Part shown: one piece after another, positions 1 to 21,187 of the stretch | How positions within the stretch are numbered: the stretch's first letter is position 1 | Layout: every line of letters starts with the position of its first letter | Assembly (NCBI GenBank): GCA_016873735.1 | Contig: VGWD01000003.1 | Location: 1 to 36,206, forward strand | Reading direction: 5' to 3' | DNA: 36,206 nucleotides | DNA from: Ignavibacteria bacterium | GTDB lineage: Bacteria; Bacteroidota; Ignavibacteria; Kapaibacteriales; UBA961 | Notes under the pieces: generated by a model | What the model was told of the DNA's origin: nothing | What the model saw: the letters and a program-made list of their open reading frames with translations, nothing else | The model's database searches: none | Program-made: the position numbers and the translations under genes

Positions 1-1628
1 CTGATGCAGACTGCATCGTTTTATATTCGCCCAAAGATCGGGATCTGATGGACTTTTTCATATCATGCACATATCCTGAGAAAGAAGATATCATTTCTGT
101 TTATAATGTGTTGTTTGGCCAAACACCCCTATATGGATATTTAACTCAGCCAATTCTCCTTACTCTTGAACAGATTGGAAATGCATGTGGAGTTCATGCC
201 CTAAAAGTGAGTACAATCGTTCAGCTCATGGAACGCAATGGAATATTGTCCAATGGTGGTAGACATGTAAGCAATAAGACAATTCGCATACTAGCTCAAA
301 GTGATGAACTGAAACAGCGAATAGTTAGTATGCAGGATCATGATCGTGGAATCATGATGGCGATGTTGCGGACCATCGGACCTGAAGCCATGCTTAGACA
401 TGTACCTTTCGACATACAAAAAATGATTCGAACGCATCATTTGCAGAGTGTCTATGTTACGGAGGCAATTTCCAGATTTTCAGCCGTTGGGCTTATCGAA
501 ACTGGGCAATCTGCCCAACATTCAGGAATCACTTTGTTGCAACAAAGGCTTCCAATTGATGAAATCCCAATTGATTTCGAGCAATTGAACAAGCGCCATC
601 TACATGCTATTTCCAAATTGGATAGTGTTATTGAATATATGGTAACACCAACTTGTAAACAGCGCTTCTTATTGGACTATTTCCGTGATGAATCATCAAC
701 TATGCTTTCATGTGGAACATGCTCTTCATGCAAGGATCATACACCTGAACTTGATGATACTCTTCATGCACGCGACCTGGTAATAAAACAATCATTATTG
801 TCTCAAATCGCGGAATTGAGCGGGCACTTTGGTAAGAAAACCATCATTTCTTGTATCAGGGGAGATATCGGTGATTATAATGTCAAAAAATATGCACTCA
901 ATCGTTCCAAATATTTTGGCATTCTCAAAGGATATGCTTCATTCATGATACGCGAAGCTCTTGAGGATTTGATCAATCACCATTATGTATCTATGAAGTC
1001 GGGTGAATATCCGATTATAAGCATTACAAAAGAGGGCGAGTCTCAATTGCTTGAACCCGTAAATCCAATGCCTATCCAACTTCATTCAACACCACAAGAG
1101 ACCTTGCTGAAAACATTGAAAAAGACACGTTCTGAATTTGGGAAGAATGATGCATTGATTCATACATTTTTCAGTGATCCTATGTTGAAGCTCATGATGA
1201 ATGCTCGGCCGAGTAATGAAGAAGAGCTCCAATCATTATGTGCTATACCCATGGACATTGCACAGAAATATGGTGCTACCTTCATTGCCACAATCGCTGC
1301 ATTCAATAAAGTGGATGATGAAGTGGAATTATCACAAACTGTGAAAACGACACTTGCATTCATTGAGCGAGGATACTCATTGTTTCGTATTGCTGAAACT
1401 CGCCAGGCAACAATCGGTACGATTGCAAAACACATAGAGCAACTTATTGAATCAGGGTATCAGTCTGAATGCATGAGTATGGTTCCACAAGATTTGCTCG
1501 AACAAATGAGAGCGCTGTATAAGCGCATGCCTTATGGTTTGTTGAAACACTTCAGAGCAGAGTTGGGCGATGGATATGAATATGCGGAATTACGCATAGC
1601 ATTGGCATTAATAAAAAAATCTGGATGA
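1..1628 (+). CDS. recQ: RecQ-family ATP-dependent DNA helicase, C-terminal part (5' truncated by window edge)
   Basis: A 3'-5' DNA helicase of the RecQ family, acting in recombination and repair. The frame is open from base 3; the first ATG in it (48) is internal, because the preceding codons read DADCIVLYSPKDRDL, the segment that follows helicase motif VI in RecQ proteins. The ATPase core therefore lies upstream of the window. Visible in order, numbering from the ATG at 48: a long linker/winged-helix stretch, the zinc-binding module (C203 in TPTCKQRFLLDYF, then C222, C225 and C228 in CGTCSSC), an RQC-type winged helix at about 240-340, and a C-terminal helix-turn-helix at about 440-475 (SLFRIAETRQATIGTIAKHI) like that closing many long bacterial RecQ proteins. 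There is no clear HRDC domain. The gene ends 1 nt before the stop of the convergent glycosyltransferase gene, with no terminator between them. Confidence 0.88.
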   Translation, partial: DADCIVLYSPKDRDLMDFFISCTYPEKEDIISVYNVLFGQTPLYGYLTQPILLTLEQIGNACGVHALKVSTIVQLMERNGILSNGGRHVSNKTIRILAQSDELKQRIVSMQDHDRGIMMAMLRTIGPEAMLRHVPFDIQKMIRTHHLQSVYVTEAISRFSAVGLIETGQSAQHSGITLLQQRLPIDEIPIDFEQLNKRHLHAISKLDSVIEYMVTPTCKQRFLLDYFRDESSTMLSCGTCSSCKDHTPELDDTLHARDLVIKQSLLSQIAELSGHFGKKTIISCIRGDIGDYNVKKYALNRSKYFGILKGYASFMIREALEDLINHHYVSMKSGEYPIISITKEGESQLLEPVNPMPIQLHSTPQETLLKTLKKTRSEFGKNDALIHTFFSDPMLKLMMNARPSNEEELQSLCAIPMDIAQKYGATFIATIAAFNKVDDEVELSQTVKTTLAFIERGYSLFRIAETRQATIGTIAKHIEQLIESGYQSECMSMVPQDLLEQMRALYKRMPYGLLKHFRAELGDGYEYAELRIALALIKKSG

Positions 1629-13486: not shown

Positions 13487-14698
13487 TCAATATATTTCTT
13501 CAGGAAATGGATCTTTTAAACTCTGATTATAATAAGATTCGATTTCATCTTGTTTAAGCAAGCATTGCTGAAGTTCAGCCATTGCCTTCTCCTTATCTAC
13601 AGACATTCCAATGAATACAAGTTCATTGAGTCTGTCTCCCCATTGTGAATGCCATTTATCTTCGATATACTCTCTATTCTCAATAAATGATGGAAACTGT
13701 AACCGTTCATCGAGTGCCATGCTACACCACCATCTTCCGGCAAGTCCAATTCGGGTGGAGCCACCTGCTTGTGAAAATGTAATTGCATAACTCGGTCTAG
13801 AAGCCAACCAGAATAATCCTTTTGCTCGAATAACCCCTTTAGGATATTGATGATTGAGAAAATCCCATAATCTTTCAGGATGAAACGGCAAACTACTCCG
13901 AAATACAAAAGAACCAATACCATACTCTTCTGTTTCAGGAGTATGACGATCGGCATTTAGTTCAATTTGCCAGCCGGCAGAAGTTTGGGCTTCTTCAAAA
14001 TCAAATAGTCCTGTATTCATAATTTCAGAAATAGGTACCCTCCCAAATGTTGAATGAACTATGGTTGCACCTGGATTGAGTTTTTTAATTGTTGAATGTA
14101 AAAGTCCAAGTACATGGTCATCAACCAAGTCAGTTTTATTTAATATAATTACATTTGCAAATTCAACTTGATCGGTAAGCAGGTTCACTATTGTTCTATC
14201 ATCACCTTGAATATCTGTCAACTTTCTATCTTGTAGCAATTGAGCTGATCCAAAATCTGCAAAGAAGTTTAAGCAGTCAACAACTGTAACCATAGTATCA
14301 ATATAACTGAACTTTGATAGATCTATACCTTGTTCCTCGTCAGCAAATGAAAATGTTTGTGCTACTGGAACCGGCTCGCTGATTCCTGTACTTTCAATTA
14401 ACAAATAATCGAATCTCCCCTCTTTAGCCAATTTTTCAACTTCAATCATCAAGTCTTCACGAAGTGTACAACAGATACATCCATTACTCATCTCTACTAA
14501 TTTTTCTTCTGTTCTGGATAAGGTATTTTCATTTTCAATTAACCGTGCATCTATATTCACTTCGCTCATGTCATTTACTATCACCGCGACTTTCATTCCT
14601 TCTTTATTGTGTAAAACATGATTCAGAAGAGTAGTTTTACCTGCTCCCAAGAATCCGCTTAGAACCGTGACTGGCAATTTCTTTATTTTTTTCTTCAT
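13487..14698 (-). CDS. CobW/COG0523-family GTPase, YciC/ZNG1-like zinc metallochaperone
   Basis: G3E-family P-loop GTPase of 403 aa, predicted to deliver zinc to client proteins when zinc is scarce. Visible: Walker [10 protein letters not shown] at residues 15-23, the metal-binding CxCC motif at C74/C76/C77 ([11 protein letters not shown]), ESTGISEP, the guanine-specificity NKTD, and a full CobW C-terminal domain with the [12 protein letters not shown]...SQAGG pattern and Trp pair typical of the zinc-linked (YciC/ZinU) subfamily rather than of cobalamin CobW. Its neighbours, a Zur-like regulator and a DUF1826 gene, support the zinc role. It lies 179 nt downstream of DUF1826; no clear promoter or second operator was found in that gap. 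A true intrinsic terminator lies 34 nt past its stop. Confidence 0.92.
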
Positions 14699-14877
14699 CT
14701 TTGTTTCTACTAGTATTAGTTTGATAAATAATCTTTAATCAATATTTAGAGACATTTGCTACTATTTTTGACTAATATCACCTTGATCTTAATCGTTAAT
14801 TTCTCGACAAACTTGGTTCATAAGTAATATTGTATCCGTTTTGATTTATTGATGCAAGTTTTCAGAAGTATATCTCC

Positions 14878-15519
14878 TCAAATAGCCCCCCTAAATTTAT
14901 CAGTGTCTATGCGTAATAAAAGTCTGATTTCTTGATCATTTTCAATCTCTGGACTTCGATGTACCAATGCCATTGATTTGCTCTGCGGATATTCTTCTCC
15001 TTTCAGAATCGCAATATGACCAACACTGATTTCATGAATGTCATTTTGGTCAATGACTATATCATCATTTGTGCTATGTGAATATAATGCATCTCTATTT
15101 ACATTGTCTTCCGATAGCCATAAAGTTCCTCGTCCCACATAAGTACTCAATAGTCTCAAATCATGAATATCGGTGTGGAATCGCTTGCACATATCTGATT
15201 CAACTCGCTCAAATGTCAGACTGTACATAGTAGAAGATGATAATTTCGAGAAAACGTGTAATGTTGAAATGATGTCCTCACATACTCGTGGACACTGCCA
15301 GTTATGTATAATGGTATGCTTATTCAATTGATCAATGATTTCTTCAATTGAACCTCTGTAATTGAATTTGATTTTATGTTGTATCAATTGTATAAGTTCA
15401 GTTTTTAAAAAGTCAATATCTCTTTGCAGAATCGCAATGCTTTTATTAGATTCAGATATTCTGTGTAGTATTTCTGGAGTATCTCCATACACATAACTCG
15501 CCTTTGTATTCTGTTCCAT
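14878..15519 (-). CDS. DUF1826-family protein, possible non-heme iron oxygenase fold
   Basis: A 213-aa soluble protein matching the DUF1826 signature FHTDIHDLRLLSTYVGRGTLW, a family often encoded beside Zur-controlled CobW-type GTPases (known association, from memory). The function is unknown. The sequence shows H115-x-D117, a later H187 in LVHRSPEI and R199 in EIRLLLRID. This order and spacing is that of the 2-His-1-carboxylate facial triad plus 2-oxoglutarate-binding Arg of cupin-fold dioxygenases, preceded by GHIAILKG (168-174), a typical GD-x-hydrophobic strand. That reading is inference. The gene is the first of the minus-strand zinc genes and faces the Zur-like gene across 99 bp holding the operator. 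Confidence 0.82.
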   Translation of the reverse strand: MEQNTKASYVYGDTPEILHRISESNKSIAILQRDIDFLKTELIQLIQHKIKFNYRGSIEEIIDQLNKHTIIHNWQCPRVCEDIISTLHVFSKLSSSTMYSLTFERVESDMCKRFHTDIHDLRLLSTYVGRGTLWLSEDNVNRDALYSHSTNDDIVIDQNDIHEISVGHIAILKGEEYPQSKSMALVHRSPEIENDQEIRLLLRIDTDKFRGAI

Positions 15520-15561
15520 GAATTATTCTATAATAATTAAGACTCATCTTTACTACTGATA

Positions 15562-15569
15562 CAAATATA
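15562..15569 (-). promoter_or_regulatory. -7 promoter box of the DUF1826-GTPase genes
   Basis: Minus-strand TATATTTG (TAnnTTTG) lies 43 nt before the DUF1826 start. A minus-strand TTG 16 nt further upstream (15586-15588) falls inside the palindromic operator. The spacing is a little shorter than the usual 19, but a repressor bound there would cover the -33 region. Confidence 0.5.
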
Positions 15570-15582
15570 TCAATTTTTGATA

Positions 15583-15599
15583 ATGCAACAGTGTTGCAT
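15583..15599. promoter_or_regulatory. Perfect 17-bp palindromic operator, Zur-box-like
   Basis: ATGCAACAGTGTTGCAT: two 8-bp arms around a central G, with no mismatch. It lies between the divergent DUF1826 gene and the Fur-family regulator gene, 20 nt before the regulator's ATG. The form TGCAAC-n3-GTTGCA is like Zur operators described in several phyla. It should be bound by the adjacent regulator and control both directions. Confidence 0.75.
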
Positions 15600-15618
15600 G
15601 TATATTTTTTTAAAAAAC

Positions 15619-16005
15619 ATGAAAAAGTCACGAAACACTTTAGCAAAGACTGAAGTACTAAAACTAATTAGTGAATCTGAGACCGCTTTATCTCATACTG
15701 AAATTCATGAGTTTCTTCATGATTTTTGCGATAGGGTGACTATTTACAGAGTATTGGAGAGATTAAATGAAGAGGGGTTAGTACACAAGGTAATTAACAG
15801 AGACGGAATTCTCAAATATGCAAAGTGTAGAGATTGCTCAGATATTCACAATGATGAGCATTTACATTTTAGTTGTTTGAAATGTGATGGGGTTACTTGC
15901 TTAAATCATAAAATGCCCAAGTACAAATTACCAGATGAGTATGTTGTAACAGAAACACATTTTTTGTTGACTGGTATTTGTCCGAACTGCTCCTGTAAGG
16001 CGTGA
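15619..16005 (+). CDS. zur: Fur-family transcriptional regulator, Zur-like
   Basis: A metal-sensing repressor of 128 aa. The N-terminal winged helix is about 5-65 (HTEIHEFL, then the recognition helix DRVTIYRVLERLNEEGLV). The C-terminal dimerisation domain carries the structural zinc site C86-x2-C89 and C121-x2-C124, and the sensing-site HLHF at 81-84. The zinc assignment, rather than iron or peroxide, comes from its divergent partners and the operator type. The frame is open back to a TTG at 15577, but that would translate through the operator; ATG 15619 gives the normal Fur start (MKKSRNTLAKTEVLKLI). It is probably autoregulated through the palindrome 20 nt upstream. Confidence 0.9.
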   Translation: MKKSRNTLAKTEVLKLISESETALSHTEIHEFLHDFCDRVTIYRVLERLNEEGLVHKVINRDGILKYAKCRDCSDIHNDEHLHFSCLKCDGVTCLNHKMPKYKLPDEYVVTETHFLLTGICPNCSCKA

Positions 16006-20785: not shown

Positions 20786-21187
20786 TTACAGAAGTAATAA
20801 ATATACTGCGGCGGCAGCTCCACTCATTCTACCACCATTTGTTGTTGCGATGATTGTTCCAGAGGATGAATTTCCTTTTCGGATACGTGTACCATCAATA
20901 AATGCAATGATTTTACCGCTTGATGAATTACCTTCCCTCACAAGATTGCCTACTACAGTTGCAATGATTTTTCCGGAGGGTGAATTACCACTTCGAATGC
21001 GTTCACCATCAATTGTTAATACTATTTCTCCTGAAGGTGAATTACCTCTTCTAATCTTGTTTTTATCCATAGTAAGTATGATTTGTCCGGATGAAGATTG
21101 ACCCATCCGCATAACTTGAGCATCAAGTTCAATAGTTGTACAAGTACATAAGATGAGAATTATAAAGAGTACATTATTCATGTTCAT
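20786..21187 (-). CDS. Secreted protein of five 19-residue tandem repeats
   Basis: A 133-aa protein. The signal peptide is about 1-24 (VLFIILILCTCTTIELDAQ). Five consecutive 19-residue repeats then cover 27-121 with the pattern R-x-G-N-S-x-S-G-x-I-I-x-T-x-D-G-x-x-I, for example RRGNSPSGEIVLTIDGERI. A short tail SGAAAAVYLLLL ends the chain. The strand-turn-strand pattern and exact five-fold number fit a closed toroid or propeller-like beta fold; Bacteroidota databases contain proteins named five-fold beta-flower with similar repeats (memory, not checked). The function is unknown. Its start lies inside the end of the serine-hydrolase gene (14-nt overlap); ATG 21181 is an alternative. Confidence 0.82.
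   Translation of the reverse strand: MNMNNVLFIILILCTCTTIELDAQVMRMGQSSSGQIILTMDKNKIRRGNSPSGEIVLTIDGERIRSGNSPSGKIIATVVGNLVREGNSSSGKIIAFIDGTRIRKGNSSSGTIIATTNGGRMSGAAAAVYLLLL

Follow-up and report, generated by a model that had tools for sequence, protein, structure and literature searches.

DUF1826, a protein family of zinc loci, is predicted to be a so far undescribed group of Fe(II)- and 2-oxoglutarate-dependent oxygenases

DUF1826 proteins, whose function has been listed as unknown since 2009 or earlier, very probably constitute an undescribed family of Fe(II)/2-oxoglutarate (2OG)-dependent oxygenases. The member analysed here is encoded in a stretch of 36,206 nucleotides from an Ignavibacteria bacterium (GenBank assembly GCA_016873735.1, contig VGWD01000003.1), called the window below. 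The enzyme class, a double-stranded beta-helix (DSBH) oxygenase, had been suggested by a sequence-only reading of the window and is strongly supported by the fold, by family-wide invariance of residues and by their register with known enzymes. DUF1826 is induced by loss of zinc in Pseudomonas and Francisella, lies beside zinc genes in several phyla and is one of just three direct Zur targets reported for F. novicida. Its assignment to the oxygenases implies that bacteria answer zinc starvation partly through iron- and oxygen-dependent chemistry, and it makes the function of the family open to standard assays (2OG turnover, +16 Da products). DUF1826 would add one more family, with an unusual role in physiology, to a superfamily already known; the kind of system is not new. 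No claim that it is an oxygenase was found in the literature searched; most subscription papers and database-only annotations (for example Pfam clans) lay outside this search, and an earlier assignment is possible.

The open reading frame had been read as a DUF1826 gene, and its coordinates proved correct; it reads on the minus strand (Table 1). Its product matches DUF1826 (PF08856) with E=9.1e-37 and 127.4 bits, the gathering cut-off being 22, and covers positions 2-202 of the 202 in the profile. Downstream on the same strand, after a gap of 179 bp, follows a gene for a ZigA-like GTPase, with which the DUF1826 gene forms a probable operon; the GTPase scores 552 bits with the ZigA model NF038288, under the cut-off of 600. 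The divergent gene codes for a regulator with 29.6 bits to the FUR profile PF01475 (cut-off 23.1), and the best named NCBI model for it is Zur (2.4e-6, under the curated cut-off). Elsewhere in the window, the minus strand of 20786-21187 encodes an ordinary 133-aa protein with a match to PF21786 (6-fold beta flower) and short internal repeats.

Table 1. Positions in the window of the genes, putative operator and predicted active-site codons
Feature	Position	Strand	Basis or remark
DUF1826 gene, 213 aa, predicted Fe(II)/2OG oxygenase	14878..15519	minus	PF08856, AlphaFold2 model, fold matches
ZigA-like COG0523/G3E GTPase gene	13487..14698	minus	cobW 5.6e-56, CobW_C 1.7e-23
Fur/Zur-type regulator gene, start ATG 15619	15619..16005	plus, divergent	PF01475
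Perfect palindrome TGCAACAGTGTTGCA, putative Zur box	15584..15598	no strand	between DUF1826 and regulator genes
Codons H115-T116-D117, predicted iron ligands (HxD)	15169..15177	minus	invariant; register with EFE, DAOCS
Codon Y127, candidate second 2OG-carboxylate contact	15139..15141	minus	invariant; analogy with PHD2-type enzymes
Codon H187, predicted distal iron ligand	14959..14961	minus	invariant; own strand 186-188
Codon R199, predicted 2OG 5-carboxylate-binding arginine	14923..14925	minus	38/40; register with EFE, DAOCS

An AlphaFold2 model of the DUF1826 protein, built from 22 aligned sequences, reached pLDDT 91.4 and pTM 0.88. The fold search that had been proposed as a check gave a clear answer: a double-stranded beta-helix is predicted, and the top 50 PDB matches of the full model (Foldseek) are all dioxygenases of the Fe(II)/2OG superfamily, with a best E of 1.2e-6. 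In VIA-align comparisons, PHD2 (Z 11.6, rmsd 3.4 over 157 aligned residues), P. putida prolyl-4-hydroxylase (P4H; Z 11.4, rmsd 3.0 over 147) and AtDAO1 (Z 11.4, rmsd 3.7 over 183) score as ties. GHIAILKG had been named as the strand preceding the distal histidine; in the model its IAILK part is a strand (169-173), followed by a strand with H187 (186-188) and by the last strand (199-206), which starts with R199. The fold also speaks to a zinc-dependent hydrolase resembling succinylglutamate desuccinylase, a function mentioned in PMC5786701 from annotations in other bacteria. With a DSBH fold such a hydrolase is next to impossible, and none of 22 members matched AstE/AspA or M14, even with hits allowed up to E=10. 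A canonical cupin (HxH...E...H) was likewise rejected: the invariant motif is HxD, with no conserved Glu after it.

Sequence comparison gives no such picture. We found no Pfam match of DUF1826 sequences to a 2OG family, and 22 members searched at E up to 10 returned DUF1826 and single-member noise only. A profile search of the PDB returned nothing besides coiled-coil noise, and no sequence profile or solved structure linking DUF1826 to the 2OG-oxygenase superfamily was found. Presumably the family is still a DUF because sequence methods alone miss the superfamily.

The residues H115-x-D117, H187 and R199, which drew attention to the protein, stand in the reading frame at the positions given for them. 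The pattern HxD-(40-110)-H-(8-16)-R occurs, however, in 34.7% of 20,000 composition-preserving shuffles of the 213-aa protein; its presence in a single protein is therefore weak evidence and was dropped as an argument for the class. The family alignment comprised 40 relatives, 32 core and 8 distant (L011-L018), from Bacteroidota and allied groups, from Alpha-, Gamma- and Epsilonproteobacteria plasmids and from a scan of 84,980 genomes. H115, D117, H187, Y127, G129, G174 and P190 are kept in all 40. R199 is present in 38 and replaced by Ser in the remaining two, so that the invariance sought for the four residues holds for the three predicted iron ligands but not strictly for the arginine. The two members with Ser (L010 and L045, motifs GP-S-ILLRLD and PG-S-LVLKLD) both adjoin ZigA genes, and two ZigA copies flank the latter; they may be a divergent subtype or one with an altered cosubstrate. 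Y127 may correspond to the strand tyrosine found in enzymes of the PHD2 type, and on this analogy it is a candidate second contact of the 2OG carboxylate.

Residues 112-206 were also modelled separately (pLDDT 86.3, pTM 0.73), and the register was read from the first and last aligned residues of the matches. Fragment positions 1..95 align with 186..284 of the ethylene-forming enzyme (EFE) and with 180..265 of DAOCS, which places H115/D117/R199 on H189/D191/R277 and on H183/D185/R258, respectively, provided that no gap falls in the first six or the last eight positions. EFE holds its iron by H189/D191/H268 and 2OG by R277 (PMC11025135); the corresponding residues of DAOCS are His183/Asp185/His243 and Arg258 (PMC6097109). 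The fragment serves for the register only and not for fold assignment, because its Z values are low (DAOCS 5.2, EFE 4.2) and cupin-fold non-2OG proteins score alike. H187 is positioned by its strand assignment together with a non-significant hhalign alignment to PF03171 proteins (E=0.03, probability 1.6%), which pairs all four residues and sets H187 on the distal histidine; hhalign against PF13640/PPHD-like proteins was uninformative. HxD and the arginine have the dioxygenase order and spacing claimed for them. A check for non-conserved or misplaced residues, made through conservation and through strand and register placement, did not refute the pattern, the placement of H187 being tentative. 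The points against the oxygenase class are the lack of a 2OG sequence-profile match, the tentative position of H187 and the two members without R199.

The same two members are also consistent with an Fe(II)-dependent oxygenase or oxidase that has this fold but works without 2OG, as isopenicillin N synthase or ACC oxidase do, in which R199 would bind a substrate carboxylate. ACC oxidase is found among the structural neighbours (5tcv, 1w9y), and DUF1826 has RLL in place of the RxS of the DAOCS subfamily. We nevertheless consider this reading very improbable: the great majority of the fold neighbours use 2OG, and so do PHD2 and P. putida P4H, the matches with the best Z. These two are not known to have an RxS motif either.

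C111, four residues N-terminal of H115, is present in all 32 core members. Together with R122 and DNVNR (138-142, an insert between core strands) it belongs to the best candidates for substrate recognition, because these are core-specific invariants that are missing in the sister group described below. C111 could instead complete a zinc site with H115, D117 and H187, in which case DUF1826 would be a metal-binding DSBH protein without oxygenase activity, serving as a zinc store, a sensor or a chaperone partner of ZigA. The location of the gene in zinc loci agrees with this, and in PMC11761036 a zinc-sparing paralog or a chaperone was proposed. The reading is improbable, since the sister group lacks C111 and yet retains HxD...H...R, a zinc store needs neither R199 in the register of the 2OG arginine nor the invariant Y127, and the 2-His-1-carboxylate site of the DSBH fold is typically occupied by Fe(II).

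The zinc-starvation setting read from the letters is supported by gene context, by a shared palindrome and by published work on homologues that are under zinc or Zur control. In F. novicida, the DUF1826 protein FTN_1758 increases over 30-fold both when zur is mutated and when TPEN is added, and a Zur site is located at 56 bp (PMC5786701); PA5534 of P. aeruginosa is up together with known zinc-starvation genes (PMC9431628; PMC11761036). We infer zinc control of the gene in the Ignavibacteria host as well. In the genome scan, a ZigA-type gene lies no further than about 3 kb away at 13 of 21 loci; this count takes in a partial frame (L033) and a protein of just 50-52% identity (L045). AztABC genes lie beside DUF1826 in Azospirillum and, with a COG0523 gene, in Skermanella; zigA is near it in Roseivivax, and ZnuABC, a QueD-like gene and pyrC are near it on an Aliarcobacter plasmid. 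In Ekhidna (L031) it is surrounded by genes for a dCTP deaminase-like protein, GTP cyclohydrolase I, MerC, YidD, phosphoribosyl-AMP cyclohydrolase and ZigA, a zinc-sparing cluster of the kind described by Haas et al. (PMC2770081). Several homologues in AztABC or ZnuABC loci have no adjacent ZigA, and the suggestion that the GTPase supplies the metal is therefore unsupported. At two loci a gene for a 64-aa protein (MIPKTFEEWKNCIVYDCKINL...; L030:6603-6797 and L033:3449-3643), for which no Pfam family was matched, is inserted between DUF1826 and ZigA. DUF6525 adjoins the DUF1826/ZigA pair in Roseivivax and Komagataeibacter.

The palindrome TGCAACAGTGTTGCA, a putative operator of the neighbouring regulator, precedes the start of DUF1826 by about 65 bp and that of the regulator by 20 bp. 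Besides the window, 11 related zinc loci carry TGCAAC-N3-GTTGCA or a sequence close to it: ten belong to the Bacteroidota group, and the eleventh is on the Aliarcobacter plasmid (L025-L042 and L021:4363). This makes the palindrome a candidate cross-phylum Zur box. In its strict form it is present as a single copy in the 2.26-Mb host genome. Degenerate copies elsewhere in this genome are inside coding frames and were taken as chance.

From these observations we infer how the predicted oxygenase might work. H115, D117 and H187 would bind Fe(II), and R199, probably with Y127, would bind the 5-carboxylate of 2OG. O2 would be used to convert 2OG into succinate and CO2, while a specific substrate would be hydroxylated or otherwise oxidised; this substrate is expected in the cytosol, because an evident signal peptide is absent. 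The protein would be made when zinc is short, because its gene stands in a probable operon with the ZigA-like gene next to a divergent Zur-type repressor. The purpose would most likely be zinc economy, iron chemistry either making a zinc-requiring step dispensable or freeing zinc from a ligand. The analysis gave no support to the targets suggested from the letters, namely a ribosomal protein, a tRNA or a zinc ligand.

Two more specific versions of this mechanism can be considered. By analogy with PiuC/CciO, the enzyme might process a zincophore or another metal-ligand complex in an iron-dependent manner and so free zinc in the cytosol. PiuC is among the neighbours of fragment 112-206 (9qn0, Z 4.5), the 2OG oxygenase CciO, encoded next to a TonB receptor, contributes to iron homeostasis (PMC11870441), and some DUF1826 genes adjoin zinc ABC importers; but metallophore synthesis genes were not recognised nearby and the commonest partner is ZigA rather than a TonB receptor, and we regard this version as possible but on balance unlikely. 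More doubtful is a zinc-starvation-induced protein hydroxylase acting with ZigA, by which a zinc protein, once oxidised at one of its residues, would give up its zinc or no longer need it. If true, this would mean that the metalloproteome is edited enzymatically by an iron enzyme.

The genes for DUF1826, the ZigA-like GTPase and the regulator (13487-16005) are absent from six genomes of the same genus and six of the same family, and the missing of all three from these 12 relatives suggests that the three-gene zinc cassette was acquired jointly. The closest relatives found in the scan of 84,980 genomes are in other lineages, and the viral contigs searched yielded no relative.

The eight distant members, all from Bacteroidota genomes, form a sister group of proteins of about 230-250 aa, approximately 20% identical to the window protein and scoring about 20-28 bits with PF08856. 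They keep HxD...Y...HRAP...R but have lost C111 and R122, and no zinc genes were recognised around them within the 3.6 kb examined. As this group has the same residues without recognised zinc genes, the fold alone implies no zinc role. The sister group appears to be another, likewise uncharacterised, family of oxygenases.

Among known systems, PHD2/EGLN1 and P. putida P4H (4iw3, a structure with EF-Tu) resemble DUF1826 in its predicted fold and predicted HxD...H...R layout, at about 6-10% sequence identity. Unlike them, DUF1826 has its own invariant C111, R122 and HRSP, the DNVNR insert and ties to zinc loci. Enzymes of the PF03171 type such as DAOCS and EFE share with it the register of HxD and arginine; compared with DAOCS, EFE and AtDAO1, DUF1826 is about 70-130 residues shorter and lacks the RxS motif. 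PiuC/CciO of iron uptake are, like the predicted DUF1826 enzyme, 2OG oxygenases of the same fold under a metal-starvation regulator (9qn0), but they belong to Fur and iron and have a TonB receptor as partner, whereas DUF1826 is tied to zinc and probably Zur, with ZigA as partner. Physiological counterparts are the DUF1826 proteins PA5534 and FTN_1758 themselves, both induced by zinc depletion and both annotated as hypothetical; the papers found do not assign them to the oxygenases.
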